Virus record (IMG/VR): IMGVR_UViG_3300037502_000991
Span: 1-44,435 of that record
From: a virus
DNA length: 44,435 nt
Direction: 5' to 3' (one strand)
The stretch's first letter is position 1, and every line of letters starts with the position of its first letter. This document shows, piece by piece, positions 1 to 43,709 of this stretch. A model generated the notes under the pieces. The model saw only the letters and a list, made by a program, of their open reading frames with translations. It did no database searches and had not been told where the DNA came from. Position numbers and translations under genes: made by a program.

Positions 1-1883
1 TATTCCTGCTCCCAAGACGGACGGGAGTAGAAATCCTTCATCTTCTCTTCTGTGTTGATCACCTTGTTCAGGCCGGGGATTCGGCTTGTAACAACTCGCG
101 TGACAATTTTGCCAGCCCTGATGGCGTTTTTCTCCTGAGGAGTCGGCACATACTCCTCACCCCTGCGCCGCGTCCTGATCTTTGCGAGATCGTCGGCAGA
201 CACATTCTGGATTGGGGTGCCGTACTCATCCGTGGGATAAGGCGTATCATAAGACCGGGGTCCAAGCGGAGAGATCTTTTCCTTCGTATCGACACGGGGA
301 TATTCACCGACAAAGTCAGTCGTGGGCGTTTCGGGACCCGGCACACCAGCGGCGGTGTCTTCCATACCCGGCCTGAATTTTTCATAGCCCTCAGTGGCCA
401 TTTGGCGAAGATCACCCGTGAGCGTCCTTGGGTTCGTCGCGAAGATGTTTGTGACGCGACTATAGCCCGGGCGAGGTTCGCTAGGGAGACTTTCAACACT
501 CAAAACCTTCTCAGTGCCAGCGTAAGGAGGAGTTTCGCTGACCCTTATATTCGGAGTGAATCCCTTAATTACAACAGAATCTGCTGAAACGGGCATAGAT
601 GGATATCCGCCCGTTCCTGCATAAGGAGGTGCGCCAATGTCAGACAGTCTTTCCGGGAGCCTGTTCGACAAAACAGTTTCGCCCGGTGGCGGCTTGGGGA
701 GATTTGAACTGCCATATCCGGTATAAGCAGAAGGGGTCCGCGCTTCATAGGCGGGCCTTGCAAGAGATGCCAACCCGGCAGATTCATAAGCAGGACGGCT
801 CAAAGAAGACAGACCAGTTGCTCCATATGCAGGACGGCTCAGGGAAGGGAGAGTTGGGGACGCAGACGGCAACCGGCTCTGGTCCTTAATGGAGGCTCTC
901 TTCTCGGCCTCGTAGGCACGCAATGTCTGCTCCGCGTTAAAGCGGGGCGGGGCAACACCGGAATAGGGAGATGTCATCCCAGTTGTGATCATCCCGGGCA
1001 TCGTTGCCGTGCGGAGATATCCTGTCCCAGCAGGAACGCGGGGTCCAAAAACGCCCTGAGGGGCTCGGGGAGTTGTGCCCTCAAACACCTTTTTTGTAGC
1101 CAGTCTGGCGTCATTGATGCGCTGGAATGTGTCGATCCTCGCGTCAAGAGTGGAGCCAAAGCTTGCTCCCTGACCAGCCATTGGGGATTTTACAGGCGTC
1201 TGAGCAACCCTACTGATGGCACCCTTAATCTGGCCAGAGGTCTGCCCCGTCTTGACATTAACAGGGGTGCCCATAGGGCCGACATTCAAAGTCTTGATGC
1301 CACCCCTTGTGAGATCAGAACCCGCCGCAGGAGACTTCTTGAGTGCCGCAGAAGCGCGTGTGCTTTCCGCAATCTGTTTAAACTGCGCGTCACGGGCATT
1401 CATCCCAGCCTTCTGGGTCGAAGACTTTTGCCCACCAACGCCGCCCTTGCCACCGCCACCACCACGGCCAATAGCGGAGCCCCCAGCGCCAACACCGAGG
1501 CCACGGGAGCTATCCCTACCGGCACCACCTCCACCACCACCTATAGAAGTGGATGACTTGGCGGTCTTTGAGCCGCCAGTGGAACCGGGTCCAGATTTAT
1601 TTGAGCTTGTTGTCTTGGAGGAACTGCTCGACTTGCTGACAGACCCGGTGCTGGTCTTTGTCGATCCTGACCCTACGGCACCCTGACCACCGCGAGAAAC
1701 GCCCTTTGAGGACGCGCTGTCATCGGCAAAGGACGGGAGGCCTCTCGGACCCCGCTCCATGTTCCCGCCATTGATGCGCTGAAGCTCCTGCATCTCCTGC
1801 CAATTCAGGTATGCAAGATACTCCTTCGGGCGACCTTTGCCCGGGTTATATGTAAGCGGGGCAGTTACCTTTTTCTTGCTCAC
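1..1883 (-). CDS. Large Gly/Ser/Pro-rich phage protein, truncated by the window edge
   Basis: The minus strand is open from a GTG at 1883 to position 1 with no stop, giving at least 627 residues; the C-terminus is outside the window. The GTG overlaps the TGA of the upstream gene and is preceded by AGAGGA. The N-terminus (MSKKKVTAPLTYNPGKGRPK) is followed by a long low-complexity Ser/Thr/Gly tract with runs of five or six glycines, then Pro-rich sequence with a three-fold repeat of the type SL(S/A)RPAY(G/E)A. No enzymatic domain is visible in the part present. It may be a structural or host-contact protein with a catalytic domain beyond the edge, but that is inference. It has no recognisable family in what I can see. 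Confidence 0.75.
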   Translation of the reverse strand, partial: MSKKKVTAPLTYNPGKGRPKEYLAYLNWQEMQELQRINGGNMERGPRGLPSFADDSASSKGVSRGGQGAVGSGSTKTSTGSVSKSSSSSKTTSSNKSGPGSTGGSKTAKSSTSIGGGGGGAGRDSSRGLGVGAGGSAIGRGGGGGKGGVGGQKSSTQKAGMNARDAQFKQIAESTRASAALKKSPAAGSDLTRGGIKTLNVGPMGTPVNVKTGQTSGQIKGAISRVAQTPVKSPMAGQGASFGSTLDARIDTFQRINDARLATKKVFEGTTPRAPQGVFGPRVPAGTGYLRTATMPGMITTGMTSPYSGVAPPRFNAEQTLRAYEAEKRASIKDQSRLPSASPTLPSLSRPAYGATGLSSLSRPAYESAGLASLARPAYEARTPSAYTGYGSSNLPKPPPGETVLSNRLPERLSDIGAPPYAGTGGYPSMPVSADSVVIKGFTPNIRVSETPPYAGTEKVLSVESLPSEPRPGYSRVTNIFATNPRTLTGDLRQMATEGYEKFRPGMEDTAAGVPGPETPTTDFVGEYPRVDTKEKISPLGPRSYDTPYPTDEYGTPIQNVSADDLAKIRTRRRGEEYVPTPQEKNAIRAGKIVTRVVTSRIPGLNKVINTEEKMKDFYSRPSWEQE

Positions 1884-2080
1884 TTGGAAATCCTCTTCGC
1901 ACGGCGCGGACGGCGAGGCCTACGCGCTTCGCTAAGGGCAATAGCAATGGCCTGCTTCGGGTTTGTAACGCGCTGGCCAGAACTGGACTTCAAGGTCTTT
2001 GCCTTGAACTCCTTCATCACCTTCTTGACCTTGCCGGGTCGAGTGATCTGCTTGCCCATGTTCCCACGACTCATCGCCAT
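1880..2080 (-). CDS. DUF6496-type small basic protein
   Basis: 66 residues, strongly basic. The core (KVKKVMKEFKAKTLKSSSGQ followed by VTNPKQAIAIALSEAR) matches what I know as the DUF6496 family, short proteins of unknown function that occur in phages and bacteria. It ends in an Arg/Pro/Lys-rich tail. A second ATG at 2074 overlaps the upstream stop in ATGA fashion and is an equally good start. Such basic proteins might bind nucleic acid, but nothing here proves it. Confidence 0.75.
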   Translation of the reverse strand: MAMSRGNMGKQITRPGKVKKVMKEFKAKTLKSSSGQRVTNPKQAIAIALSEARRPRRPRRAKRISK

Positions 2081-2301
2081 TTGTCACACCGCTTCTTTAC
2101 CGGGTCCCATCTTCCGCCACGGCGCTGGCAATCACGCCAAGCCTTTTCCTGCTCAGGGGTCATGCGCTTTGTGATGATAGGAGCTAAACCTTTAAACACA
2201 TGAGAAACGAGCCCCACCCAGAAGGCAGGGCTCTGCGCCACGAAATAAGTGCCGATTGCCAAACCAACCACAATGGCGATAAGGAAAGCGGCTTCGTACA
2301 T
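2071..2301 (-). CDS. Single-TM lysis-cassette protein with conserved basic tail (copy 1)
   Basis: 76 residues. An N-terminal hydrophobic segment (about residues 3-24) is followed by a charged C-terminus containing EQEKAWRDCQRRGGRWDPVK. The same architecture and tail (QEQAWRDCLRRGGEWDHV) occur in the 31657-31899 gene, also placed just downstream of a small two-TM protein and an endolysin, so the two are diverged paralogues. It starts with a TGATG overlap on the upstream gene. Position suggests a membrane-anchored lysis accessory; the biochemical role is unknown to me. Confidence 0.7.
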   Translation of the reverse strand: MYEAAFLIAIVVGLAIGTYFVAQSPAFWVGLVSHVFKGLAPIITKRMTPEQEKAWRDCQRRGGRWDPVKKRCDKWR

Positions 2302-2468
2302 CAGGCAGAACGCTTGTCAGCGACAGACCACGCAATACCAACGATTGTCATGATGGCACCAATGGCTTCATTGACCATCGCCTGATCGGCAATGCCCTTG
2401 GCGGCAACATAACCACCGGCAAAGGTGAGGATGTGCCGAACGATACCGAGAATAGACTGCTTGTTCAT
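2301..2468 (-). CDS. Putative small holin, two hydrophobic segments
   Basis: 55 residues (MNKQSILGIVRHILTFAGGY...). It has two hydrophobic stretches (about residues 5-24 and 34-49) separated by a short polar turn, and a charged end (ADKRSA). Size, topology and position between an M15-type endolysin and the single-TM tail protein are what a class II-like holin would show; it resembles small Pam3-gp28-type phage holins. Its role would be timed inner-membrane permeabilisation to release the signal-less endolysin. Function is inferred from context. Confidence 0.65.
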   Translation of the reverse strand: MNKQSILGIVRHILTFAGGYVAAKGIADQAMVNEAIGAIMTIVGIAWSVADKRSA

Positions 2469-2477
2469 TTTCGTTTC

Positions 2478-2936
2478 CTATTTGTTACCGGGGTAAACTT
2501 TTCTGTCGCACTCAAAATGCGGTCCATCGGGGAATGTTCGGCTAAGGTGAGCCGAAGAAATCTGCCCCTTAACAGAGTTTAGCAGCTTCCAGCTTCCTCC
2601 CCAAACGATAGGGACATTCTCCACAATGGCCGCATCCTTCATTGCATTTGCAATCTTTATGTACAGATTCCAGTCCCACTTTGCCTTCCCGTCAATCATG
2701 GCGACCACATCCACAGCATGGCTGAAGCCATTCTTCGCGGGAATGTGACGGGAATTCATTGTTCTGGAGGCACCCTTCTTCACAAGGACCCTCTGCTCTT
2801 CGACTGTACGAACCCCGCAAGTGATGCCAAATGTAAACGTTTTGTCTTTCCAGTCTTTGGCGCAACGCATAACAACGCGCACCAAGTCAGGATGCACGCC
2901 CTTAAGCTTTGACAAGGATGACTTGCTGAACTGCAT
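2478..2936 (-). CDS. Endolysin, M15-family peptidase (copy 1)
   Basis: 152 residues. Family features are visible: HPDLVRVV near residues 15-22, TCGVRT (39-44), a zinc-binding SRH (62-64) with HAVD (73-76), and GPHFE (138-142), so the likely zinc ligands are H64, D76 and H140. M15 phage enzymes of this type cut the L-Ala-D-Glu (or similar) peptide bond of peptidoglycan. There is no signal peptide, so release should depend on a holin. Compared with the second copy at 32107 it has an extra loop between SRH and HAVD and an insertion of about 17 residues before GPHFE. It starts directly at the stop of the upstream secreted-protein gene. Confidence 0.88.
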   Translation of the reverse strand: MQFSKSSLSKLKGVHPDLVRVVMRCAKDWKDKTFTFGITCGVRTVEEQRVLVKKGASRTMNSRHIPAKNGFSHAVDVVAMIDGKAKWDWNLYIKIANAMKDAAIVENVPIVWGGSWKLLNSVKGQISSAHLSRTFPDGPHFECDRKVYPGNK

Positions 2937-3331
2937 CAGGCACCCTGTAGGAGGAAGAAGTCATCCGCAGTGACACCAGCGGTGTTGGCAAACGAAGCCC
3001 ACTGAGGAAGTGTCATGACGGCAACCGTGTCCTGAATCACACAGCCATTCTGATCGAAAATTGCCGCAATCACATCGATTTCAGTGGGGCTCTTCTGAAC
3101 AAGAGAGATGGCGATAAGCTTGCCATCCACGGGCTGCTTGCCAGCAGCCATCCTGTTCTCGTTTACTTTGGCGATAACCTTCTTGCTTGCGTTCGCATTC
3201 GAAACAAGCACAGAAGCATTAACCGCCTTTACGGCCTCGCTAAACCTGTCGAGATTGTAGCATTCCTGTGCGAAGGAAGGTACAGTCGCGAAAAGGAGAA
3301 AAGCCGTAGCAATCAGCGCCCGAAAGGCCAT
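2936..3331 (-). CDS. Secreted protein with signal peptide, lysis cassette
   Basis: 131 residues from an ATG at 3331, which I prefer because it places a clear signal peptide (MAFRALIATAFLLFATVPSF followed by AQ) at the N-terminus. The mature part of about 110 residues holds two cysteines and no domain I recognise. There is no lipobox before the first Cys, so it is not an obvious o-spanin. It overlaps the upstream gene by 19 nt and abuts the endolysin. Position suggests a periplasmic role at lysis or superinfection; this is inference. The right-hand lysis cassette has no counterpart. Confidence 0.65.
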   Translation of the reverse strand: MAFRALIATAFLLFATVPSFAQECYNLDRFSEAVKAVNASVLVSNANASKKVIAKVNENRMAAGKQPVDGKLIAISLVQKSPTEIDVIAAIFDQNGCVIQDTVAVMTLPQWASFANTAGVTADDFFLLQGA

Positions 3332-3540
3332 AATGTCATTACCTTTGTTGCAAAACTTCCAATAGCAGCCGAAATAGTGCCGACAACGAGCAGCATCTTC
3401 CACCCGCCACTTGCCTTATCAAGCGTGGCACGAATTGCCTTTACGTCATCCTTCATCTCGGCCATGTCTTTTTCTAGCCGCTCAACTTGAACTTCCATGC
3501 GGGCAACCGAAATTTCAATTCTCTCGTTCACTTCTGTCAC
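3313..3540 (-). CDS. Coiled-coil plus C-terminal TM protein (XhlA-like)
   Basis: 75 residues. Residues 1-45 are a heptad-rich charged helix (ERIEISVARMEVQVERLEKD) and residues 49-66 are a hydrophobic transmembrane segment, ending MTLWPFGR. The plan resembles XhlA-type lysis accessory proteins, which associate with a holin and endolysin at the membrane. It heads the left lysis cassette and overlaps the DUF5872-type gene by ATGA. The gene at 32490-32762 has the same two parts in opposite order. Confidence 0.65.
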   Translation of the reverse strand: MTEVNERIEISVARMEVQVERLEKDMAEMKDDVKAIRATLDKASGGWKMLLVVGTISAAIGSFATKVMTLWPFGR

Positions 3541-3908
3541 CGGAACCGGGCGGTCTTCGCCGCAATCTTCTTTGGTTGCTTGACAAATTGTTTGCCTGCC
3601 CTTGTGCCTTCACGCTTTGCGCGGGTTGTGGCAGCGTATTCTGCGGGGCTGAGGGCCTCACGCGCCTTCTTGGGGAGGTAGCGTTCACCTGTCTTCCCAG
3701 ACGGCTTGCCGCTCTTTGTGCCCCATTCTTCCCTTGTCCATTTGGTCATGGACTTCTGAGCCTTTGTTTTCGGCCCGGTGTAACCACCACCACGATCCTT
3801 GTAGATCTTCCCAGCAAGCTGCATCGCTCTCGCGGAGTGCTTGCCGCCCATCTTGGCTTTGGCTTCTGCCTTGGCCCTAGACCACAGTGCCTCGTTGGTG
3901 CGCCCCAT
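3537..3908 (-). CDS. DUF5872-type basic protein
   Basis: 123 residues, Lys/Arg-rich. The C-terminal half contains KWTREEWGTKSGKPSGKTGE and RYLPKKAREALSPAEYAATT, which I recognise as the DUF5872 family found in large DNA viruses and phages; its function is not established. The N-terminal third may be a separate short helix-rich segment. It is followed by the lysis cassette and preceded by another small basic protein. Confidence 0.75.
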   Translation of the reverse strand: MGRTNEALWSRAKAEAKAKMGGKHSARAMQLAGKIYKDRGGGYTGPKTKAQKSMTKWTREEWGTKSGKPSGKTGERYLPKKAREALSPAEYAATTRAKREGTRAGKQFVKQPKKIAAKTARFR

Positions 3909-3909
3909 G

Positions 3910-4164
3910 TCAGCAGTTCCACGCCCGAAGGGACTTGTTGATACGGCTGTTGGGATCCTTTGCCGTCTTAGTAGATGTCAGCTTCTTCTTCATGCCCTTC
4001 ATGCGGGCACAGAAAGAATCACGGCGCGAACCGCCTTCAGGTTGCGGAGCCTTTAGCCCCGGCTTTCCGGGGTTTGCACGATTGTATGACGCGCGGCCTT
4101 TAGCGTTTAAACCACCTTTTGGGTTTTTGCCCTCTTTGCGCTGCCATGCTTGTGTCTTGGCCAT
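3910..4164 (-). CDS. DUF6321-type basic protein
   Basis: 84 residues. The signature AWQRKEGKNPKGGLNAKGRA followed by ASYNR, then SFCARMKGMK and a final SLRAW, matches the DUF6321 family as I know it. It is short, very basic and of unknown function, and is often found near DUF5872-type genes in phages. It is translated just upstream of the DUF5872-type gene with one base between them. Confidence 0.72.
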   Translation of the reverse strand: MAKTQAWQRKEGKNPKGGLNAKGRASYNRANPGKPGLKAPQPEGGSRRDSFCARMKGMKKKLTSTKTAKDPNSRINKSLRAWNC

Positions 4165-4180
4165 TTTTAAAACCCCGCAA

Positions 4181-5212
4181 CTATTGTTGCACCTGAATTA
4201 CATCCAATATAACACCCGGCACTGCGGGCCTTGCAAATGTCGGACCCCCGTTTGCCCCGGTTGTCGCGGCTTTGGTGGTGATGCTTATGTCTGTGCTATC
4301 CCCAGCAAACATCAGTTCAAAATACTGACCGGCACTCATCGAAAGCGTCCAAGACCAAGAAGGAACGAGAACAGTTCCGGATCCGCTGACCGTTGTCTCA
4401 GAATTGCTGTCAGCGACATCGTTTCCGTTTATTCTCGGCCAAATCCAAAGCTTTTTGCCGGAAGCAGAGCCACTCTCAATCTGAAGAGAGAAATCAAACT
4501 TATAAAGCCCACTGCCCGTTATAACGATTCTTGATGCAGGGGAACCAATCGAGACACCATTCGAGACCTCTGTCGTGTCAAGCACTACAGCTTTTGGGGT
4601 GTAGATTGCACTTGGTGTTTGTGCAGCGCCCTTGTAAGTGAAGACACCGTAATATTTCTGCTGTTCAATTGTCGGTCTTACGAAGATCTCTCCGTTGGTC
4701 ACGCCCTTCTCAAGAACAGCAGCAATAGGAACAACCGCGCTTGGGGCAGTTGGCTTTACATTCGTTAAGCCACCAGCAACCGATGGGTTTGCATAAAGAA
4801 CATCACCAGCGTTGAAAGAATTGGTGTTTATCCCGCTGACATGCCCCCATACGGTGCAATAACCAATTTGCCCGGTATCCGGGAGATCATGTGCCATGAT
4901 CCCGAGAATATAGAGAGTTGGCACAGTTCCGTTTGCGACATACGGTGTAACAAGAAGTACGTTGTTTGCACCAACGCCAGCAAAACCAACAACAGTGCCT
5001 TTTGGTATCAAGGAGCCTGTGCTGTTTTGGACCCGGGCATATGTTTCCTGCCCAACCTGCATTGAGACCCCGTATTCGAGGCCTACATCAAATGTGCCGT
5101 CCTGCACAGACCACGCCATCTGCCCAAGCGCCAAAGGCCCCACCTCCGGCGTGGTGCCGAAGATGAAGCCATTATCGGACTTTACCGGGCCACTGAACCG
5201 CGTCTGGGCCAA
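4181..5212 (-). CDS. Fibre- or baseplate-like virion protein
   Basis: 343 residues. The first two thirds hold the pattern VQNSTGSLIPKGTVVGFAGV ... GIMAHDLPDTGQIGYCTVWG, typical of phage structural proteins with small beta-domains. The last ~130 residues form a predicted beta-sandwich (SRIVITGSGLYKFDFSLQIE) like C1q/TNF-type fibre heads. It probably contributes to a receptor-binding or decoration structure, though host range cannot be read from it. It lies 3 nt downstream of the 127-residue gene that belongs to the 695-bp repeat, at the edge where the two repeat copies diverge. Confidence 0.6.
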   Translation of the reverse strand: MAQTRFSGPVKSDNGFIFGTTPEVGPLALGQMAWSVQDGTFDVGLEYGVSMQVGQETYARVQNSTGSLIPKGTVVGFAGVGANNVLLVTPYVANGTVPTLYILGIMAHDLPDTGQIGYCTVWGHVSGINTNSFNAGDVLYANPSVAGGLTNVKPTAPSAVVPIAAVLEKGVTNGEIFVRPTIEQQKYYGVFTYKGAAQTPSAIYTPKAVVLDTTEVSNGVSIGSPASRIVITGSGLYKFDFSLQIESGSASGKKLWIWPRINGNDVADSNSETTVSGSGTVLVPSWSWTLSMSAGQYFELMFAGDSTDISITTKAATTGANGGPTFARPAVPGVILDVIQVQQ

Positions 5213-5215
5213 TGT

Positions 5216-5599
5216 TTACACTCCCGGCACCCAATAACTCATCCCCCCCGCCCAGATGCGCCGGGGGTTGTCTACGGAAGCGGGATCAATCCACTCAACA
5301 CCGGGTCCGCCTTGGGCAAGCACGGCAGGATCGTGGCCCTGCTGCACGTAGTCCTCGGGCACCGGATCGGGCATGGGTCCGGCGATCTGCGTGAGGCGGA
5401 CGTTCACGTGGAAGTGTTCATCCACGACAGCGGGGGACACCACATCGCCCGTCTCGGGGTCAATGACAGCGGGGGTTGTGACTATCTGGCCTATACAGTC
5501 GATATAACAGCCCAGAGGCTGCCCGTCAGAAGTGAGGCTGACGATGGCTGCATAGGCATCCCATGCTGCCTTGTCGGTGGCGCGGTACATCAGGTCCAT
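5216..5599 (-). CDS. Conserved phage protein within the 695-bp repeat (copy 1)
   Basis: 127 residues beginning MDLMYRATDKAAWDAYAAIV. No domain recognised. The protein is nearly identical to the 130-residue product at 43710-44102: differences are a Pro/Glu and an Ile/Val change about 20-25 residues before the end, and different C-termini (SYWVPGV here, SYYTPVTTEE there). It starts at the stop of the HNH nuclease gene. Position between a head-fibre-like gene and, at the other copy, connector genes suggests a virion role. Confidence 0.6.
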   Translation of the reverse strand: MDLMYRATDKAAWDAYAAIVSLTSDGQPLGCYIDCIGQIVTTPAVIDPETGDVVSPAVVDEHFHVNVRLTQIAGPMPDPVPEDYVQQGHDPAVLAQGGPGVEWIDPASVDNPRRIWAGGMSYWVPGV

Positions 5600-5932
5600 T
5601 ATGCGGTCCTCGACTGGAGTTGGAGGCGATTGCTAAGAGTGGCTGGCATCAAGTCAGGCCGTCTGCGCCACTGAAGGATTTGCGAGGAATGAATGTCGAG
5701 CCGTCGTGCGGCGTCGGCTTGGATCATCTCTTCCCCATCCAGCACTACCCGGACAGTTTTGCGCTGGTTCCGCGATTGCTCGTTATTGGGTATCCAGCGG
5801 CAATTATCGGGGCTGTATCCGAGGTGCGGGTTAATCCGGTCAAGCGAACCGCCTTCCGGCCTGTCACCCATGTCGGCATAAAAAGCCTCAAAGCTTGCCC
5901 ACGCCTCACAGTAACTAATGCCGATGCCACCA
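5238..5932. repeat. 695-bp direct repeat, copy 1
   Basis: This stretch recurs at 43741-44435 in the same orientation (offset 38503). I compared the rows by eye: the first ~50 bp match, ten mismatches fall between about 5290 and 5318, and 5319-5932 appears identical. It contains the 127-residue gene and the C-terminal half of the HNH gene. The second copy ends because the window ends. Confidence 0.93.
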
Positions 5933-6243
5933 TATCGGTCATAGTTGACCGCCTTGGGATTGTCGCAGCGTTGCTTCATGGACCGCCACGAACGGTAAGC
6001 GCCAAGGAAGTCACCGTTCCTTGTCGCACCATGCGTGATTGACCGCTCAAGCGTCTTCTGGCGTGTGCGGCACCCACAAGAGCCGGAGTTCCCGCGTCTA
6101 AGGTCAACACCATTCAAGACTTTCGTGTTGCCGCAGTCGCACTTGCAGAGCCATTTAGCTCTATGGTTCTTAAGTCCTACGAACTCAAGCACCGTCAGCA
6201 TGTCGAACCGCTGCCCTGTTATGTCGATCACTTTGCGGGCCAT
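5599..6243 (-). CDS. HNH homing endonuclease with zinc finger (intact copy)
   Basis: 214 residues from the ATG at 6243, which overlaps the stop of the fibre gene (TAATG). Residues 31-58 hold two cysteine pairs (WLCKCDCGN ... SCGC), a zinc-finger-like element. Residues 71-160 have the pattern HG ... YRSWRSMKQRC ... DRINPHLGYSPDNCRW, the HNH form seen in free-standing phage homing nucleases. A C-terminal helix-turn-helix (about 164-195, IQADAARRLDIHSSQILQW) resembles NUMOD-type DNA-binding segments. It probably cuts an intron- or gene-less cognate allele. A partial second copy sits at the right edge. Confidence 0.8.
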   Translation of the reverse strand: MARKVIDITGQRFDMLTVLEFVGLKNHRAKWLCKCDCGNTKVLNGVDLRRGNSGSCGCRTRQKTLERSITHGATRNGDFLGAYRSWRSMKQRCDNPKAVNYDRYGGIGISYCEAWASFEAFYADMGDRPEGGSLDRINPHLGYSPDNCRWIPNNEQSRNQRKTVRVVLDGEEMIQADAARRLDIHSSQILQWRRRPDLMPATLSNRLQLQSRTA

Positions 6244-8528
6244 TAGGCGCTCGTCCTCTGCTGCAACTCGGCGTTGGTCAGGCGGCGAGGGATGTAAGTG
6301 ATCTGCCGTATCCACTGCTGACCAGCTACGGACCCACTTGAGCTAGGTCCGTAATCCGCACCGATGCCAAGCCTTGTTAAACCCGGTGTGGGTGATCCAC
6401 TTGTGCTCAGTGTTGTCGCCGCTGCACCGTTTACAGACGCTGCTGCTGATCCCGTGGCGTAAGCGTAAGCTGCTTTCCCGGTAAAAAGCGTATTTGATGC
6501 GCCGTTTAAGATAGTAGTATTCGCGACAAAATTGTTGCTGTTGTTGTTTTCCTGTACAATCAGGTCGCCAACCACATAGTTATAGTACATCACGCGGTAG
6601 TTGTCGTAACCACCGTTGCCATCGTCCATCGAGTATTGCGCGGCACCAGCAGCTCCACCCGTCAGAACAGACGCGGCGCTGACCACCACCGTCCCCTCGC
6701 TCGCCGAGTACGGAAACTGACTGGTTGCCACGCTCGCCACATCGGCGTTGCGGGTGACGGTAGAAGCGGCTGTCGGGATGTAACTGGTGGCGAAGGCTCC
6801 GGCTTCGAGTTGGGCGCCCCAGACGTAAACACTGTCACCTGCCGTCTGAGATGACGGTCCCGGATAAAAATAAATTGTGGTCGTGCCAGCCGCTACGGAT
6901 GACGACGTGGTGAGAGTTACCTTTGTCCACCCAGTAGTCAGCCCCGTCATCGTCATCAAGTCGGTGCCAGTAATTGAACCGCTACCAGAAACAACAGCGG
7001 TGGTAGCAGCTATCCATGAACCATTATTTAGCCCGAAGCGAAGCGCAGTAGCAGTACCAGACCGCACCCAGAACGAAAGAGTGTGCTGTGCCACAATAGT
7101 TGTAGTAGCGGCACGATTGCGACTGGCATTTGAAGCAGAGGCAACAATTTCATCTGCTGTTTGCACGCCAGATGGAGCAATCGCACCATTCGCATTTACA
7201 GTCGTGCCGCCACCTCCGCTCGACCAGTTTGTGAAATCTTCCGAGTAAGTCGCCAGATTAGTCCTCGTCTCCTCAACGAGAAGCCCCCTCGCAGCCAGCG
7301 TCACCGGATCATAGTCCAGCCTCGGCCCATGCGCGGCAGCAGCAGACGGAGCGGCACCGTAGGAGCCTACATAGGGGTCGAGGGAGGCGCTGTCGGAGAG
7401 CTGCGCGCCCCAGAAACTGACGCTCTCGGTGCCAACCGGGCTCCACGTTTGAGCGCGAGTTGCCGTGGCGCTTGCGGCAAGCATGTACAACGGATAACGA
7501 CCAGTAGACGCTGCCGTGTACGTTATAGAAATCCGATACCACCCATCTGCAATGGCAGTAATCGAAGCGGTGCATGCACCATTTGCGGTGGCGGTTCCAG
7601 CCCCTGAGAGCGTGTAATTGGCCCACTCTGTCGCTTGGCCGTTAATGTAGATTTGGACGAAACTATATGTTCCGGCCTTGGCGTAGATTGACGCCGTGTA
7701 CTTGGTATCGGTGATCGACGGCGGTGACGTGCTTCCGATACGAGGGATTACTCCCGACCCAGCGTTAGCGGTGATCGTCTGCGCCGAAATAGAGCCGTTG
7801 GGCGCAGAAACTTTTGCGCCCGGTATCGTAACAACATTTTTGTCCCACGCGGCATTGTCGAACGCCTCGCTGTAGCCATAGATGTTCTTCGGCGTGCTCG
7901 GGTTATACAGCGGATAGGCAGAGGCATTCGCTTGCATGCCGCCGAGGTCGGAGCGGTAGAGGTGGGCGCCCCAGACATATACACCAGAGGTGTTGTCGCC
8001 TGTAAACGTCTTGGAGCCATATTGGTCAGCAGTGAATGTGCCGGTGTCTACAACGGATAGAACATAGTCGACCGTGGTATTTGCGATTTCAATGCGCCAC
8101 CAACCGCTGCCAACCGAAACAGGAGCCGGAATAGTACCGGAGCTTTGAGTTACGGCGCCGGTTGTCAAGTTGACCACTGCATAATCACCGGTGGTCTGCC
8201 CGATGGAAATAAAATTATACTCAGCAGCCCGCGCGTATATTACCCCGGCCTTGGAAACTCCCAAGAAGCCAGTCTGATACGTTCTGTGAACGCCGGAGGT
8301 GTTAGTCGCAATCAACTTGTCAGCCGTGGTCGTGCCATTTGGCGCTGCGATGCTATTTGCAGCAACCGTTACGTTGGTCTTTACCCAGCTACTCGCGTCG
8401 AACTGCTCGCTCGCCAGCAGCAGATTATGCGGAGCCCACTTGATGCGGCCATCCGCGTCCGTCACGGTGGCGAGGGAGCCGCGCGAGAAGGTAATTAGCT
8501 GCGTTGCATTGCCAGTTGTTGTCGGCAT
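6243..8528 (-). CDS. Head-spike/fibre-like protein with repeated modules
   Basis: 761 residues. It contains at least three related modules that begin with a signature such as NLLLASEQFDASSWVK, YGYSEAFDNAAWDK and NLATYSEDFTNWSS, each followed by a beta-rich jelly-roll-like stretch (TADKLIAT..., ISAQTITA..., TADEIVAS...). A C-terminal LamG-like part starts near SYIPTAASTVTRNADV. This is the pattern annotated as phage head spike fibre domain. Its place soon after capsid and decoration genes fits a capsid-attached fibre that could bind the host surface or glycans; that is inference. It starts at the stop of the upstream gene (overlap of 1 nt). Confidence 0.75.
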   Translation of the reverse strand: MPTTTGNATQLITFSRGSLATVTDADGRIKWAPHNLLLASEQFDASSWVKTNVTVAANSIAAPNGTTTADKLIATNTSGVHRTYQTGFLGVSKAGVIYARAAEYNFISIGQTTGDYAVVNLTTGAVTQSSGTIPAPVSVGSGWWRIEIANTTVDYVLSVVDTGTFTADQYGSKTFTGDNTSGVYVWGAHLYRSDLGGMQANASAYPLYNPSTPKNIYGYSEAFDNAAWDKNVVTIPGAKVSAPNGSISAQTITANAGSGVIPRIGSTSPPSITDTKYTASIYAKAGTYSFVQIYINGQATEWANYTLSGAGTATANGACTASITAIADGWYRISITYTAASTGRYPLYMLAASATATRAQTWSPVGTESVSFWGAQLSDSASLDPYVGSYGAAPSAAAAHGPRLDYDPVTLAARGLLVEETRTNLATYSEDFTNWSSGGGGTTVNANGAIAPSGVQTADEIVASASNASRNRAATTTIVAQHTLSFWVRSGTATALRFGLNNGSWIAATTAVVSGSGSITGTDLMTMTGLTTGWTKVTLTTSSSVAAGTTTIYFYPGPSSQTAGDSVYVWGAQLEAGAFATSYIPTAASTVTRNADVASVATSQFPYSASEGTVVVSAASVLTGGAAGAAQYSMDDGNGGYDNYRVMYYNYVVGDLIVQENNNSNNFVANTTILNGASNTLFTGKAAYAYATGSAAASVNGAAATTLSTSGSPTPGLTRLGIGADYGPSSSGSVAGQQWIRQITYIPRRLTNAELQQRTSA

Positions 8529-8770
8529 TAGAGAGTCCTCACCGCGTAGGTGTTGGAGATGTAGTCCATCGCAAAGCCTTGAGGCTCCGCACCAATGAGA
8601 TCAAGCGCATCGAGCCTTCTCAAGGCATATGAATCAGTTAAGAAGTCAATCGCGAAGCCGTTGTCTTCCGTTCCGAGAAGGTAAATCGCGCCATTGCCAC
8701 CGGCACCGCCAACGCTCGGCGGGCCGAATGGAGAGCGTATCCCGCTGATAGGCGAGACTAGCTTACGCAT
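8528..8770 (-). CDS. Small virion-region protein with repeated AIDF motif
   Basis: 80 residues from ATG 8770 (MRKLVSPISGIRSPFG), chosen because it overlaps the upstream stop by only 8 nt. The C-terminal half contains two copies of a 14-residue motif: AIDFLTDSYALRRL and AMDYISNTYAVRTL. A third related copy (AIDFMLDEYVVKM) ends the protein at 32759-32968. The function is unknown; it lies between a decoration-like gene and the spike-fibre gene. Confidence 0.6.
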   Translation of the reverse strand: MRKLVSPISGIRSPFGPPSVGGAGGNGAIYLLGTEDNGFAIDFLTDSYALRRLDALDLIGAEPQGFAMDYISNTYAVRTL

Positions 8771-9047
8771 GAGACACAACCACCGGAACGATTTCCGTGG
8801 CGTAGGCATAAACTCGATTAGCTCCGCTCAAGCCGGGAAACAAATCAGAAAGGAGCGTGTTGCGCTCACCCTGGCCAGGATTATAGCGAATAGAACCCGC
8901 CGTGCTCGTTGGCGTCACCGCGCCGACCGTGGCCTTGATAAGGATGTGATTGGAACCGACGTTCTGAAACGTGATTGCTGGCACGTTTGCGTCGGTAAGC
9001 TGAACCCACGCATTAGCCGTGGTGTTGATCGTCGTATTCTGTGGCAT
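8763..9047 (-). CDS. Small virion protein, decoration-like
   Basis: 94 residues, Thr/Asn-rich and beta-predicted (MPQNTTINTTANAWVQLTDA, then VGSNHILIKATVGAV). No charged helical segment, no TM. Such small beta proteins after the major capsid gene are often capsid-decorating or fibre-base proteins. The family is not recognised, so the role is inferred from position and composition. Confidence 0.6.
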   Translation of the reverse strand: MPQNTTINTTANAWVQLTDANVPAITFQNVGSNHILIKATVGAVTPTSTAGSIRYNPGQGERNTLLSDLFPGLSGANRVYAYATEIVPVVVSHA

Positions 9048-9107
9048 TTCGAACTCCGTTCATTTCGGATGGTAGGGCGACCCCAATGGAGCCGCCCCTT
9101 AGAGTCG

Positions 9108-9551
9108 TTAGGTAGCAGCCACCGAGGAACCGACGAAAGTCGCCGGGGCCTGAGCGTCGTGGCTCACGATGGCATAGACGGTCACGGAAGCATTGGTGCC
9201 CGTGGTGCCCACGCCATTGAGGCGCAGATACCGCTTGGCACCGCGATAGCCCACCGCGCCGATGCACTTGTTGTCATCGGTATCCGCCGTCACGGAAAGA
9301 GCAAACGTGCCATCTGTGGTATCGGCGGCGACAAGAGCCGAAGCCCCGGAAGCCGCAGTCGTGTCCGAGTGCTGGGCCGTGAAGGTGAAGCCCGCCGTAT
9401 CGCCAGCATCCGTCACCGTGTTCGTATGAAGAACGATGGCGGCGCTATCGAAGCCACGGGTATCAACCCAAGCGGAGGCTCCCGGCGTGGTGCCGGACAG
9501 GGTAATGGCCCCCAGATGAACGATCTGGATATTAGACTTGAGGTCACGCAT
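9108..9551 (-). CDS. Decoration-like capsid-region protein
   Basis: 147 residues, Ala/Thr-rich with alternating beta pattern: MRDLKSNIQIVHLGAITLSG, then ASAWVDTRGFDSAAIVLHTN, GFTFTAQHSDTTAA and a final VTVYAIVSHDAQAP. I recall similar proteins next to HK97-type capsid genes, where they are annotated as head or decoration proteins. It follows the capsid gene after a strong hairpin. Assigned by position and fold-like pattern only. Confidence 0.6.
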   Translation of the reverse strand: MRDLKSNIQIVHLGAITLSGTTPGASAWVDTRGFDSAAIVLHTNTVTDAGDTAGFTFTAQHSDTTAASGASALVAADTTDGTFALSVTADTDDNKCIGAVGYRGAKRYLRLNGVGTTGTNASVTVYAIVSHDAQAPATFVGSSVAAT

Positions 9552-9583
9552 TGATTGAGTTCCTTATGCGCTTGATTGAGGAA

Positions 9584-9605
9584 GGGGGCGGATTAAACCG
9601 CCCCC
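9584..9605 (-). terminator. Strong hairpin after the capsid gene, attenuator or terminator
   Basis: The plus strand reads GGGGGCGG-ATTAAA-CCGCCCCC, a perfect 8-bp GC stem with a 6-nt loop. On the minus strand it is followed by TTCCTCAATC, which is only weakly T-rich, so it may attenuate transcription or stabilise the capsid mRNA 3' end instead of fully stopping it. It would help explain a high capsid dose relative to downstream genes. Confidence 0.65.
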
Positions 9606-9611
9606 CGATTG

Positions 9612-10907
9612 TTACGAGCCGAGCTTCACCAGCTTGATGGCTTCGAAATTCACCACATCGCCGCCCACGCGCTTCGTGGTGTAGAACTCCACGTAGGGCT
9701 TGGCAGAGTAGGGGTCACGAAGCGTGCGGATGCCGAGGCGGTCCACGATCTGATAGGCCTCGCGCATATCGCCAACGGCGATGGAGAGCGAGTTCGAAGC
9801 CGGATCGGGCATGTCCTCGAAGGCCGCAACCGGATAGCCGAGCAGCGTGGCTGGCTGACCGGCCTGAATGCCGGGAGACCAGATGTAAGCGCCATCGGAA
9901 TCCTTGGCCTTGCGAACCAGCTTCGTGGTTGCGCGATTCATGAACCAAGTGGCGTTAGCACGATACTGCTGCTTTAGGCCATAGAGCGCATTGATGAGCG
10001 CATCACCGCCATCGGGGGCAGAGGCCAGAGCGCCGGAAGCGCCCGTGGGGAACTGCTCGATGGTGCCCGGAAGCGTGGTGCCCGAGGCATAGGTGAGGAA
10101 GCCGCGCGGCTTGTTGACGCCGTTGCCGACCACGAAGGCGTTGGCTTCGTCGCGGGCGAACTTCTCGGCAACCTTGGAGGCAAGCCATGCTTCCATGTTG
10201 ATCGAGGCATCGTCCAAAAGCTTCTGCGTCGCCTTGGGCTTCGCATAAAGCTCATGAGCCGGAATGCGCCACTTGCCGAGCTGCGGCGTGTTGGTCTCGG
10301 CGCGGGAGTCCGTTTCACCAACCCAACCGGAAGAGGCTTCGTTCAGATCGAATAGACCTTCGAGAGCATCGGTAGAGATGACCTGAACCGAAGCATAGGC
10401 ACGCATCGGGGAAGATTCGAAAACCTTCATAACGATACGGCCCGAGAGGTCCGGGTTGACCACATAACCGCCATCGGGATCGGCACCGACCGAGAGAGCC
10501 TTGCGCTCCTCGACGCCCATGACCTCTTCGCCCTTGCGGAGGAAGGTGTCGAACGCGGCCTTGTAGCCTTCCATGTCGGCGGAACCGAAGGAGCCGATCA
10601 CGGCACCGCGACGGCGGGCATTCATGGAAGCCCATTCCTGGGCCTTGCGGTCGAAGTCGAGAACATTGCCGTTCTCATCGGTCACGACACGCGACTGACG
10701 CTTCGCCGCAAGCACGGCTTCGTCGGCAATCTTCTGAGCCTTTTCGAGGTCTTCCTCGATCTTGCGGAGCTTCGCCTCGGTCACGACATCGGCGGAGCCC
10801 TTCTTTTCGATCTGGGCAAGCCGTTCATCGTTGGCCTTCTTGAACTCTTCGAATCCGGCGTGAAGCGCGTCAACCGCGCCGATTGCCTTCTTGATTTCCT
10901 CTGACAT
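9612..10907 (-). CDS. HK97-family major capsid protein
   Basis: 431 residues from ATG 10907. Residues 1-80 form a charged coiled-coil scaffold region (EEFKKANDERLAQIEKKGSA), the delta domain removed by the prohead protease in this family. The mature shell domain follows (ALSVGADPDGGYVVNPDLSG, then GKWRIPAHELYAKPKATQKL, FVVGNGVNKPRGFL and AVGDMREAYQIVDRLGIR), all characteristic HK97-fold landmarks. Length is normal for the family. It overlaps the end of the protease gene by 38 nt, usual for this pair. Confidence 0.95.
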   Translation of the reverse strand: MSEEIKKAIGAVDALHAGFEEFKKANDERLAQIEKKGSADVVTEAKLRKIEEDLEKAQKIADEAVLAAKRQSRVVTDENGNVLDFDRKAQEWASMNARRRGAVIGSFGSADMEGYKAAFDTFLRKGEEVMGVEERKALSVGADPDGGYVVNPDLSGRIVMKVFESSPMRAYASVQVISTDALEGLFDLNEASSGWVGETDSRAETNTPQLGKWRIPAHELYAKPKATQKLLDDASINMEAWLASKVAEKFARDEANAFVVGNGVNKPRGFLTYASGTTLPGTIEQFPTGASGALASAPDGGDALINALYGLKQQYRANATWFMNRATTKLVRKAKDSDGAYIWSPGIQAGQPATLLGYPVAAFEDMPDPASNSLSIAVGDMREAYQIVDRLGIRTLRDPYSAKPYVEFYTTKRVGGDVVNFEAIKLVKLGS

Positions 10908-12030
10908 TGAATACACCTTTGAGTTTTGTCAGCTTTTCCGTGAGGGTATCAAGCCCCTCGGTTACTGCCACTTCCTCGCCAGCGTCTCGCTGTTTCAGTA
11001 GGGCCTTGAATCCGTGGAGGGTAAGAGCCACGGCCTCTTTGCGAGAGTATCCTGCATCACGCAGGAACTTCTCAAAATCGCGTTCTGTGTGGATGGATTC
11101 CGCACTCTTAACGTTCGTCACCTTGGCATCGGGAAGCATCGGGAAGGTGACTAGGGAGATTTCGAACAGATCAAGCTCCATGAGCTTGCGGACCCGACCA
11201 TCACCTTCCATCGTGGCCTCGACGGTGCGATAGCCGATGGACATGGAGTCGATAGCCCCGGCGCGAAGAAGCGCCATAGCCTCGCGGCCCTTCTCGACTT
11301 CCTTAAGCAAGCGGCCACGGACAAAGAGGCCGCGTTCGTCTTCATAGATTTCATCCCAGACCCCGATGGGCTGAGACATATCGTGCTGCCAAAGCATCTT
11401 GACCTTGCGGGCACCGAGCGATTTGCGGAAGGCACCGCGCTCGACCACATCCATGCCTTGATCGACTACGCCGAAGACGGAGGCATATCCTTCAAAGACG
11501 CCATCCTGATCAGGCTCTCGCTTGAGGGTGAGCGAGAAATTCTTGTGCTGGATTGATTCGTCCATGAACTTGTCGCCTTCATTGGAGCTTTCGCGGTCAA
11601 CGATCTTGTTCGCCCATGACTTGCCCGGATCACCGCCCCACAAGGCCCAGGCTATGCGCCCTGCGGAAGGGTATCCATCTTCACCGGGAGACCATCCTTG
11701 GCCTTGCTTGTCTACTTCGTGGCGGGCGAAATAAGACTTCATCCGCTTAACGGTATCGAGCGAGAGATTACGGCGGTTCTTAATGTCGCGTGCGCGTGCA
11801 ACTCCGATCTCGGTGCCGCCACGGCCAAACTCTTCGCGCCATGCAAGGCCGCGCTCGGCTTCGCGTGCCATAGCCTCGGTCGGTGAGAATCCGTCTGCCT
11901 TGCCTTCCCACTTGGAAATGCACACGGCATATCGCTGATCTTCATCAGGAAAATCGGCCATAGCTTCCTCGTCGCTCATGCAACGGGAGAGAAATTCGTC
12001 TTCGCTTTCGGTCGGACCGGGGCTAGGCAT
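10870..12030 (-). CDS. Prohead protease (S78 family) with N-terminal extension
   Basis: 386 residues. Residues 1-150 are an extension with the SWEG-like region (YAVCISKWEGKADGF) and a helical segment (NRRNLSLDTVKRMKSYFARH) seen in some phage protease fusions. The protease proper begins about residue 160 (FEGYASVFGVVDQGMDVVER), with the catalytic His in LWQHDMSQPIG and Ser in AIDSMSIGYR. It would cleave capsid delta domains and itself during prohead maturation. The C-terminus (EGLDTLTEKLTKLKGV) is coiled-coil-like. Encoded between the MuF-like gene and the capsid gene, the expected order. Confidence 0.92.
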   Translation of the reverse strand: MPSPGPTESEDEFLSRCMSDEEAMADFPDEDQRYAVCISKWEGKADGFSPTEAMAREAERGLAWREEFGRGGTEIGVARARDIKNRRNLSLDTVKRMKSYFARHEVDKQGQGWSPGEDGYPSAGRIAWALWGGDPGKSWANKIVDRESSNEGDKFMDESIQHKNFSLTLKREPDQDGVFEGYASVFGVVDQGMDVVERGAFRKSLGARKVKMLWQHDMSQPIGVWDEIYEDERGLFVRGRLLKEVEKGREAMALLRAGAIDSMSIGYRTVEATMEGDGRVRKLMELDLFEISLVTFPMLPDAKVTNVKSAESIHTERDFEKFLRDAGYSRKEAVALTLHGFKALLKQRDAGEEVAVTEGLDTLTEKLTKLKGVFNVRGNQEGNRRG

Positions 12031-16364: not shown

Positions 16365-16731
16365 CGTGAATCTTGGCGAGTGCTGCCATAACAGCAGCGG
16401 CAACTGGCTCTGGCTTTAGTGAGCCATCTTCGTTAGAGATATCCACGGTCTCACGCCAACGGGCGCGGGTCTTGAGCCAGAATATCATCGAGGCGGTATC
16501 GCCAGCCATAGCTTTCTTGTAGAGCGCACCGCCGACCGAAGCGTTGGCTTGGTCTCGGGCAAGATCGAGTTCCTTGCGGTAATGACGCTGGAGGCTATCG
16601 ACCGAGATGCCGAGGATTTCCGCGATGATCTCCTGGCGCGTTCCGACCATGCCATGAAGCTGCACCTTCTGGCGCGTTTCATCGGTGGGTTGATGAGGCG
16701 GTCGGCCTAGCTTCTTGGGTTCGTCGGTCAT
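16351..16731 (-). CDS. terS: Terminase small subunit
   Basis: 126 residues from ATG 16731 (MTDEPKKLGRPPHQPTDET), overlapping the upstream stop in ATGA style. A helix-turn-helix lies at about residues 32-52 (RQEIIAEILGISVDSLQRHY), followed by LARDQANASVGGALYKKAMA and AMIFWLKTRARWRETV, the arrangement of small terminases that recognise packaging sites and recruit the large subunit. Located directly before terL. Confidence 0.88.
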   Translation of the reverse strand: MTDEPKKLGRPPHQPTDETRQKVQLHGMVGTRQEIIAEILGISVDSLQRHYRKELDLARDQANASVGGALYKKAMAGDTASMIFWLKTRARWRETVDISNEDGSLKPEPVAAAVMAALAKIHDDTE

Positions 16732-17429
16732 GTTGTCACCATAGAACATGGAGCGTGTGGGTCAGTGCTGCCCTGCCGCTGTTCCGGGGGGTTCCCGGTC
16801 ATCGCCTGCTTCACACGCTTGGGATATGGTTTTGCAAGCGGCATTATACGCTGCCGCATGTCTTCGTCTAGTGGCATGAGGTATCGGTGTTTGCCGGGTT
16901 TCTCAACTGGTGTGCATTGATTTGGCGTCAGCGTTTTACGGCGCTTGCCCTGCACAGTAGTCCACCCTTGTTTTTTTATCATTCGCGCGTGCCAACGCTT
17001 TCCGTCTGGGCCTATATATTCAACAGACTTTGAACCTTGGCCTGAATATATCCAGTTTCCAGCTTGATAAACGCCGCCATGGTGACCTTCGCTCGGATCA
17101 GCGAAGGAAACTATCAATCTCAATTCTGAACTATTGCGCTTTAAAAATTGAATAGCCAATCGAACGATACGAGACACTGGCGTATCATGTTTTGTCATCG
17201 CAATGCGCGTCAATTCACATCCTTCTGTTTGTTGCAATCCAAACGGATTAAGCAATGATGGTGTTGCGCCTCTTGAAAAAATCACCACACCCACAAACTT
17301 ATCTCGTTCCCAAGCGCCTACTTTAACCAAAGGCGGAACTGGTACGCTTTTGCTATAATGCCAATTCTCACAGGCATATTTCGCTGCTTCATGCGTTGCC
17401 CAGTCGATGCGAAGGTTAGCCTTGCTCAT
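16728..17429 (-). CDS. mom: Mom-family DNA adenine modification protein
   Basis: 233 residues. It shows the Mom pattern: ENWHYSKSVP (21-30), GVVIFSRGA (47-55), EGCELTRIAM (69-78), PVSR (84-87), and SFADPSEGHHGGVYQAGNW (108-126), then IYSG. Mom of phage Mu, a GNAT-fold enzyme, turns adenine into N6-(methylcarbamoyl)adenine and protects phage DNA from restriction. The last ~60 residues (TLTPNQCTPVEKPGKHRYLM onward) are basic. Mu needs Com for mom translation; no Com-like gene is present. It overlaps the ParB-like gene upstream by 14 nt and leads into the terminase genes. Confidence 0.85.
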   Translation of the reverse strand: MSKANLRIDWATHEAAKYACENWHYSKSVPVPPLVKVGAWERDKFVGVVIFSRGATPSLLNPFGLQQTEGCELTRIAMTKHDTPVSRIVRLAIQFLKRNSSELRLIVSFADPSEGHHGGVYQAGNWIYSGQGSKSVEYIGPDGKRWHARMIKKQGWTTVQGKRRKTLTPNQCTPVEKPGKHRYLMPLDEDMRQRIMPLAKPYPKRVKQAMTGNPPEQRQGSTDPHAPCSMVTT

Positions 17430-30249: not shown

Positions 30250-30512
30250 CTGACATTGTGGAAAGGCTGAGGCGTTGCGCCGACAGAGAGCGCCCGTATG
30301 GCCCAGTCAGTGACATATGCGATGAAGCCGCCGCAGAGATTGAGCGGCTGCGTGCGGCGCTGGAGGAGATTTTTGCTCAAGATGATGCCGCCGCTTGCTG
30401 TGGCAAAGGCCGTGGCTATGGCGACCAGTTAGAATGCTGCGGCAACCCTGAGTACGGCATTGACCGGGCGCAACGCATCGCCCGCGCCGCCCTCGCAAAG
30501 GAAGGTGAGTGA
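30246..30512 (+). CDS. Small cysteine-containing phage protein
   Basis: 88 residues (MTDIVERLRRCADRERPYGP). The pattern ERLRRCAD ... CDEAAAEIERLRAALEEI is common in small phage proteins of rhizobial and related phages. Four-cysteine segment CCGKGRGYGDQLECCG. Function unknown. Confidence 0.62.
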   Translation: MTDIVERLRRCADRERPYGPVSDICDEAAAEIERLRAALEEIFAQDDAAACCGKGRGYGDQLECCGNPEYGIDRAQRIARAALAKEGE

Positions 30513-30769
30513 TGGTCGGAAGTGAGTACACATACTGCCCGATGTGTGGCTGCGAGGATGGACAAGGCTGCTCAAAGGACTGCCCGTCAGAAGTCATGCC
30601 GCGCCTACTCGCGGAGAACGCCAAACTGCGTGCGGCGCTGATAGCGTGGATGGATGCCGTTCGCATCGACGCCACAATGGAAGGCCCCGTTTACATGGGC
30701 ATTTCCTCAACGCTGGGCCGCAAGGCTTGGGAACAGACCCGCGCCGCCCTCGCGCAGGGAGGTGAGTGA
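30512..30769 (+). CDS. Small cysteine-rich phage protein
   Basis: 85 residues from ATG 30512 (MVGSEYTYCPMCGCEDGQGC). CPMCGCEDGQGC with a later C forms a zinc-binding-like site, followed by a helix (RLLAENAKLRAALIAW). TGATG coupling at both ends of the chain 30246-31425. Function unknown. Confidence 0.6.
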   Translation: MVGSEYTYCPMCGCEDGQGCSKDCPSEVMPRLLAENAKLRAALIAWMDAVRIDATMEGPVYMGISSTLGRKAWEQTRAALAQGGE

Positions 30770-31020
30770 TGATCCGTCCTGAACAGATACCCGACGAGGT
30801 GGTGGAGGCGGCTGCGAAGGTTCTTCATGCTAACAACGAGGTGTTTCACGATGTTTCGTGGGATGACCTTGGTGACTACGACCAAGAGGCATATCGTGAA
30901 GAAGCCCGCGCCGCCATCGCCGCAGCTTTGAATGCGTGGCCGGATTCGTTCATTACCAAGTACAGCGAAGGCGCACCGGCTTTTAATATCCCCCTGCCGC
31001 AGAAAGAAGGTGACGCATGA
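30769..31020 (+). CDS. Small protein with MIRPxQIPDE start (copy 1)
   Basis: 83 residues (MIRPEQIPDEVVEAAAKVLH). Shares its start and an AAIAAALNAWP segment with the next gene, so the pair looks duplicated. Helical. Function unknown; such motifs recur in small phage early ORFs. Confidence 0.6.
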   Translation: MIRPEQIPDEVVEAAAKVLHANNEVFHDVSWDDLGDYDQEAYREEARAAIAAALNAWPDSFITKYSEGAPAFNIPLPQKEGDA

Positions 31021-31205
31021 TCCGGCCTGACCAGATACCCGACGAGGCATGGGAAGCCGCCATGAAGACAGACCCGCGAGATGGTCTGCGCGCAGCCATC
31101 GCCGCAGCTTTGAACGCATGGCCGGGGGCGGCCCAAAATTACAATTGGGATGGAAGCCGCTGGAGGATTGTCCTTCCTAACGAGCAGGAGGGCTGTGATG
31201 AGTGA
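31017..31205 (+). CDS. Small protein with MIRPxQIPDE start (copy 2)
   Basis: 62 residues (MIRPDQIPDEAWEAAMKTDP), then AAIAAALNAWPGAAQNYNWD. Shorter paralogue of the previous gene, linked by ATGA. Function unknown. Confidence 0.58.
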   Translation: MIRPDQIPDEAWEAAMKTDPRDGLRAAIAAALNAWPGAAQNYNWDGSRWRIVLPNEQEGCDE

Positions 31206-32106: not shown

Positions 32107-32493
32107 CTAAGGGTATGATTTGCGTGTCAACTCGAAGTGCGGTCCGTCCTTGAACGAAACCCAGTCACCGCCCCAGGTGATCGGCACCTTCTCCGCTTTT
32201 GCTGCGGCCTTCATGGCCTTTGCCAGCTTGCTATACAGGGGCCAATCCCATCGCACTTGCCCCGTGACGGTGGCGGCTAGATCAACTGCGTGGCCCGTCA
32301 AGTGGCGGCTTTTGAGCGTGCGCGTTGCTCCCTTCTTGTAGAGAAGTTTCTGCTCTTCCAAAGTGCGAAGGCCACACGTGACTATAAACCCTGATTCCTT
32401 GTCTTTCCAATCCGCAGCGCAACGGCGCACCACTCGCACAAGATCGGGATGCACACCACGGAGCCTAGCATTGGATGCAGAGTTCAAGTTCAT
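32107..32493 (-). CDS. Endolysin, M15-family peptidase (copy 2)
   Basis: 128 residues. HPDLVRVV (15-22), TCGLRT (39-44), SRHLTGHAVD with H64 and D71, and GPHFE with H119. Clear homologue of the left endolysin, but the zinc loop is compact (LTG between SRH and HAVD) and lacks the insertion before GPHFE, closer to the usual family form. No signal peptide. Adjacent to tail genes, the more typical place for a siphophage lysis gene. Confidence 0.88.
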   Translation of the reverse strand: MNLNSASNARLRGVHPDLVRVVRRCAADWKDKESGFIVTCGLRTLEEQKLLYKKGATRTLKSRHLTGHAVDLAATVTGQVRWDWPLYSKLAKAMKAAAKAEKVPITWGGDWVSFKDGPHFELTRKSYP

Positions 32494-39618: not shown

Positions 39619-40008
39619 TTAGCCCGGAGTAAATGTGATCGTGCCGGAAGACTGAATAGACGCCGTGAATGTCGTGGCGTCGGCCTGTTCGCCCGTCACC
39701 GCAAAGGAGGCGAGGTAGAAGTTGCCGGTGAAGTCACCAATCGTATCGACCTCAAGAGTGTAGGATTCGAGCAATGCCGAAGCCGTGCCGACCGCGAGAG
39801 CCAGGAAGGTGGAATCCTCAAGGATGCCTTCGACCTCGGCATCAATCGAGCGAACGCCAACGTCGGCAAGATAGGTGCGCCAGCCGTTGCTGTCCTTCTC
39901 GGTGATGTCGATGGGTTCGTTATTGATCGTCAAGGAATCGGCCCGCGCACCGGCAACGGCAGTGCTGCCGCGCTTGATGCGAACTTTACGGCCAGAGATA
40001 GCAGCCAT
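39619..40008 (-). CDS. Major tail tube protein, short paralogue
   Basis: 129 residues (MAAISGRKVRIKRGSTAVAG). The motif LTINNEPIDITEKDSNGWRT, then YLADVGVRSIDAEVEGILED and FYLASFAVTGEQADATTFTA, typical of TP901-1-like phage tail tube proteins. It is a paralogue of the next upstream gene (LTINNEPLDITDKDDSGWRT-type motif). Possibly the tube or a tail terminator-associated form. Confidence 0.82.
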   Translation of the reverse strand: MAAISGRKVRIKRGSTAVAGARADSLTINNEPIDITEKDSNGWRTYLADVGVRSIDAEVEGILEDSTFLALAVGTASALLESYTLEVDTIGDFTGNFYLASFAVTGEQADATTFTASIQSSGTITFTPG

Positions 40009-40022
40009 TTCTTAGTCCTTTC

Positions 40023-40703: not shown

Positions 40704-40742
40704 GCTTCATCCTCTTGGTTTGGCCGAATTATATCACGGAAA

Positions 40743-43495: not shown

Positions 43496-43498
43496 GGA

Positions 43499-43708: not shown

Positions 43709-43709
43709 T

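Follow-up and report, generated by a model that had tools for sequence, protein, structure and literature searches.

The question raised by this locus is why one virus record contains the same stretch of 695 bp twice, and whether any single phage genome really holds both copies. The record is an entire virus contig and no slice of a longer one, and its whole length of 44,435 bp, which was analysed here, will be referred to as the window. By direct comparison, positions 5238-5932 and 43741-44435 are identical at 685 of 695 bases, with an offset of 38503; the ten mismatches lie at 5290, 5297, 5300, 5303-5306, 5309, 5315 and 5318, and the 614 bp that follow (5319-5932, corresponding to 43822-44435) contain none. 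The repeat described in the first-pass annotation, which had placed ten differences in some 30 bp next to 614 identical bp at this same offset, is thereby confirmed. BLAST adds 3 bp at its left (698 bp, 98.4%), and in the flanks left of 5235 the similarity of both copies is at chance level. Since the second-best repeat in the window measures 70 bp at 81%, and nothing else comes close, the 695-bp match is far beyond chance. The right copy stops exactly at the final base of the record (44435). On the minus strand, the repeat comprises most of an ORF of 127 aa (5216-5599) or 130 aa (43710-44102), hereafter the sORF, together with the 3' part of an HNH gene (5599-6315). The first 52 bp of the left copy (5238-5289), at the 3' end of the sORF, are GC-rich, the same in both alleles and nearly the same in two contigs of other lineages, L005 and L003 (44-45 of 48 positions); this stretch could mark a boundary at which modules are exchanged. 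The reading that we consider best, at a probability of about 0.92, is that short-read assembly has fused two phages of one sample into a chimeric contig, namely the circle of a phage A and a 5.2-kb piece of a phage B. The repeat is most likely an ordinary metagenome assembly artefact, and no duplicated gene.

Positions 5933-44435 are very probably a complete circular genome of 38.5 kb (38,503 bp), belonging to a siphovirus lineage that we call A. A full siphovirus gene set is found there. The head genes comprise small and large terminase, portal, head morphogenesis, protease and a major capsid protein of HK97 type (9612-10916, minus strand; TIGR01554, E 1.6e-111; PF05065). Across the contig ends there are a head-tail connector (42815-43495, minus strand; PHROG 442, E 6.3e-24; PF05135), head closure, neck, tail terminator, major tail protein, tape measure, fibre and endolysin (32107-32493, minus strand; PHROG 465, E 5.4e-53). 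Replication genes are located on the plus strand and a primase on the minus strand. Joining 44435 to 5933 gives the order capsid, spike, HNH, sORF, a 69-aa gene, connector. The independent contig L004 runs unbroken from the end of the gene at 8528-8809 via the spike, the sORF, the gene at 43499 and the connector to the tail genes, at nucleotide identities to the window of 88% over 40252-43914 and 91% over 8401-8592; its connector (96%) comes directly after the sORF and the 69-aa gene. Furthermore, more than 50 other independent contigs have the capsid, the cassette region (whose content varies) and the connector in one contiguous stretch. Four near-complete relatives have overlapping ends, and they open at four different genes of one circular map: G001 (38,482 bp, overlap of 132 bp), G002 (37,550 bp, 51 bp), G003 (37,263 bp, 127 bp) and G005 (38,339 bp, 126 bp). 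Because these four relatives of 37.3-38.5 kb have matching ends, and 38,503 bp fits their size, the map of phage A is taken as circular. The 38.5-kb circle already proposed for 5933-44435 is thus upheld by the gene order and by the terminal overlaps of relatives. Contig ends among the A relatives show no excess at the cassette, their upstream and downstream distributions being alike. A scan of bacterial genomes with the phage A capsid returned distant relatives only (best, 46%), so that no host was assigned.

Some other features of this genome deserve mention. A Mom-like DNA modification gene (16728-17429; PHROG 1384, E 2.9e-54) adjoins the small terminase gene. Two neighbouring genes at 39619-40703 each match PHROG 1407, a major tail protein family, and contain the above-mentioned 70-bp DNA repeat at 81%; they are probably an old tandem duplication. 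The small plus-strand ORFs (about 60-90 aa) that follow one another at 30481-31125 contain repeated stretches of 34-40 bp (88-92%) and are perhaps a small early-gene family that arose by tandem duplication.

The left arm (1-5237, minus strand) is very probably a fragment of phage B. Its gene order is a 343-aa C1q-like protein, the genes 3910, 3537, 3313 and 2936, an endolysin (2478-2936, minus strand; PHROG 465, E 1.4e-49), 2071, 1880 and the start of a Gly/Ser-rich protein (3-1883) that runs off the contig edge. The B contigs L164-L174 have the same order (3910, 3537, 3313, endolysin 2478, 2071, 1880, start of the Gly/Ser-rich protein), with amino acid identities of 62-95% for the best conserved proteins and 62-73% for the endolysin. 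The arm had been called an odd branch with a second lysis cassette, a description that is upheld; its genes are collinear with those of lineage B. The B contig L171 carries the B capsid, small genes, the spike (42%), the sORF (76%), a 268-aa gene, 3910, 3537, 3313 and the endolysin in this order, from which it follows that the junction between arm and cassette is natural in phage B. The 343-aa protein (4181-5212) sits where L171 has its 268-aa gene, and its relatives are annotated as cerebellin/C1q-like. Lineage B differs in its capsid (PHROG 371), encodes GroES and has structural genes of a podovirus-like kind; "podovirus-like" is our judgement from gene content, not morphology. As B is recognised by homology alone, the arm could in principle be sitting in an unusual genome.

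The genes of both parts of the window are found in separate genomes elsewhere. The A capsid is present in 11 of 29 records and the 3537 gene of B in 10, and the two occur together in none of the 29. Among the loci retrieved by single-gene searches, which thus form no random sample, 85 contain at least two A core genes and 12 at least two B core genes, and none contains both. The composition also switches along the contig: tetranucleotide usage of windows in 1-5200 correlates with B at r 0.82 and with A at 0.56-0.65, the cassette (5201-9100) correlates poorly with both, and from about 9.1 kb onward usage is A-type (r 0.71-0.86 to A). No near DNA match to 1-12000 was found among phage GenBank records. 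The arm does meet the cassette in the same orientation as the downstream genes of A itself, as would be expected of a strain variant of phage A with an alternative late region at the same place; nonetheless, it has neither a head-tail connector nor tail genes, the contigs to which its genes belong differ in capsid and other structural genes and encode GroES, and its tetranucleotide usage is unlike the rest of A, so that this explanation has next to no chance of being right. In this sense, the earlier suggestion that related genomes were joined at a shared segment needs to be divided. The joining stands on the gene order and terminal overlaps of relatives, on the mutually exclusive gene sets and on the compositional switch; the word "related" does not, as the lineages have different capsids and a common cassette only.

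The same observations bear on whether the repeat might be a true duplication, i.e., a single linear phage genome exceeding 44 kb whose two copies of sORF and HNH were kept identical by recent gene conversion, as the first-pass annotation had offered. Such a genome would account for two copies within one contig and for their identity over 614 bp. It would not account for a right copy that stops at the contig end, or for a conserved gene order that appears when 44435 is joined to 5933; arm and circle genes are never together in relatives, the composition of the arm differs from that of the circle, and complete relatives of 37.3-38.5 kb exist without such a sORF/HNH duplication. A real duplication is consequently rejected on gene order, exclusive gene sets, composition and the relatives lacking it, and we leave it a very slight probability. 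The perfect identity of the 614 bp may be that of one and the same graph edge printed twice, and is thus no independent evidence for gene conversion.

What the two lineages have in common is a head-spike cassette. The fibre (6243-8528, minus strand; 761 aa) is of gene-transfer-agent type, like that of the Rhodobacter agent (RcGTA): it matches the spike fibre domain NF048003 in three copies (E 5.6e-74) and resembles the solved spike chain Rcc01080 (PDB 6tb9, E 1.2e-20), the two features by which we class it as an RcGTA-type spike. The RcGTA spike fibre binds capsular polysaccharide (PMC10218006). Like the head spike Rcc01080 (PMC10218006), the protein described here has three copies of the spike fibre domain, N-terminal similarity to the solved chain and a gene beside the capsid gene; unlike it, it measures 761 aa instead of 325 aa, occurs in phages of several lineages and is followed by the sORF of 127 or 130 aa, and its binding would be by analogy only. 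Besides A and B (L171), at least two more lineages (L005 and L003), whose capsids were judged by eye, have spike and sORF next to the capsid gene; the cassettes lie at L171:2371-5269, L005:7494-10378 and L003:1-2525. Such neighbourhoods suggest, at the level of sequence, that the cassette is a head module open to exchange between phage types, and the shared head-spike cassette is a new instance of known modular exchange. A cassette of gene-transfer-agent type beside unrelated capsid genes in several lineages suggests, moreover, that a receptor-binding part is exchanged. The slot between capsid and connector (6243-9551) is hypervariable in more than 50 contigs of lineage A, where alternative cassettes of different content are found. 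The contig with loci L005 and L006 (IMGVR_UViG_3300045580_000289, 39,799 bp) has ends that share 140 bp (97.9%), a stretch lying within this sORF and immediately behind it, and may be circular with allele differences at the sORF.

The two sORF copies are best regarded as alleles. The first, v1 (5216-5599, minus strand; 127 aa), is the final gene of the spike cassette, has its 3' end joined to the B arm and is 75-76% identical in amino acids to the L171 sORF; the second, v2 (43710-44102, minus strand; 130 aa), is joined to the 69-aa gene and connector of A, a context also present in L004. Seven of the ten repeat differences fall in third codon positions of the 127/130-aa ORF, and the copies therefore look like genuine diverged coding alleles and not like read errors. 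In the diverged stretch, v1 agrees with the L171 sequence of B at 28 of 30 positions and v2 at 22 of 30, while the 3' end of v2 agrees with the L004 sequence of A at 73 of 79. Some A relatives also resemble v1 in these 30 bp, among them L090 (27 of 30). Because the stretch is short and such A relatives exist, the match of alleles to lineages is used as supporting evidence only; the diverged 30 bp by themselves would be a weak lineage marker, and gene context and the C-terminal codons weigh more. The part of the sORF shared by both copies is equally close to A-type, B-type and other relatives (about 70% identity) and therefore does not discriminate between the possible directions of donation. 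The sORF had no near match among phage GenBank records, and the low quality of its AlphaFold model (mean pLDDT 59.8) precluded a fold search. When the viral collection was scanned for exact copies of the shared segment and of the diagnostic stretch of each allele, there were 0 matches, and thus no same-sample parent was found.

The way in which both genomes became one contig can be proposed as follows. In both lineages, the head-spike cassette comes directly behind the capsid gene and closes with the 127/130-aa protein; here it has the HNH gene inserted, and the A and B sequences would coincide from 5319 on, inside the sORF gene. In a de Bruijn graph, the shared stretch would form one edge with two entries, one from B (1-5318, with v1) and another from A (up to 43821, with v2). 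The assembler could have come in through the B entry, followed the shared edge, gone round the circle of A and printed the shared edge again; the right copy is read as this same edge in its second printing, which would stop at the equivalent of 5932 where the edge ends, presumably by divergence of A and B inside the HNH gene. Both this mechanism and the presence of all 614 bp in B are inferred; the sharing that must be real for the join is about one k-mer next to v1. A cassette common to both phages would explain why the assembler joined a piece of B to the genome of A. In independent relatives, the sequence on either side of the junction continues naturally (for A in L004 and more than 50 other contigs, for B in L171), and the two gene sets come together in 0 of 29 records and in 0 of the loci retrieved. 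A joint molecule might also have existed physically, either as a rare A x B recombinant or as a chimera arising in DNA amplification or library preparation, and here an identical shared sequence would serve as a natural crossover point in a cassette that is found in several lineages. However, to be viable a recombinant would have to contain the full A genome, a portion of B and two lysis genes, a rare molecule would not be expected to prevail in the assembly, and the overlap printed at the contig end is explained without any joint molecule; we consider its chance slim.

The assembly chimera has known precedents, as chimeric phage contigs are recognised to arise from repeats and mosaic modules (PMC10563150, Phables). 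The likeness lies in two genomes that share a module and whose unique parts are joined by the assembler, with the shared segment placed at both ends of one genome; the case described here differs in that the partners are of different lineages, sharing only a cassette and not most of their sequence, and in that one genome is complete and circular. For practical purposes, the record is to be split before use into 5933-44435 and 1-5237, the latter very probably derived from another phage. Used whole, the record would make it seem that one phage has two lysis cassettes and a duplicated gene, both probably non-existent. Besides their suggested part in exchange, shared head-spike cassettes also create places where assemblers fuse genomes.

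The HNH endonuclease gene between spike and sORF (5599-6315, minus strand) offers a further view of the shared stretch. The protein is listed with 238 aa from a GTG, its conserved part starts near MARKVIDITGQRF, and it matches PHROG 374 (E 3.2e-60); searches of Pfam and NCBIfam gave no match. Spike and sORF are directly adjacent, without the HNH gene, in L004, L003, L005 and L171, which thus show the empty site. Homologues at about 75-83% amino acid identity follow the spike in L131 and L245 of lineage A and in L244 of another lineage with different downstream genes (coordinates L244:419-1156 and L245:1961-2662). The family match and the related genomes with an empty site identify the gene as a candidate free-standing homing endonuclease. 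The shared 614 bp might then be real and stem from a very recent transfer between two otherwise distinct phages of one community, in which the putative HNH enzyme cut an empty site and repair copied the nuclease along with a co-conversion tract ending in the sORF at 5319. Judged from these sequences, a homing event with co-conversion would be a fair explanation of the shared stretch; the transfer as such is put forward tentatively, at odds below even. If true, part of a receptor-binding head-spike module would have passed between a siphovirus and a podovirus-like phage with a homing endonuclease as its vehicle. Homing endonucleases at phage exchange boundaries are known (PMC10448857), and the gene described here is similarly free-standing, in a module of otherwise different phages and near the capsid gene. 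The HEG islands of that work involve a shared tract of more than 10 kb, whereas here it amounts to at most 614 bp with one nuclease gene at a cassette, and cleavage is only predicted.

A second fusion of this kind may be present in another public record. In the 75,554-bp contig G006 (IMGVR_UViG_3300044618_000713, loci L332-L335), two phage genomes of about 37.7 kb are seemingly joined at short shared segments, and it is a probable second chimera, comparable to the one described here.
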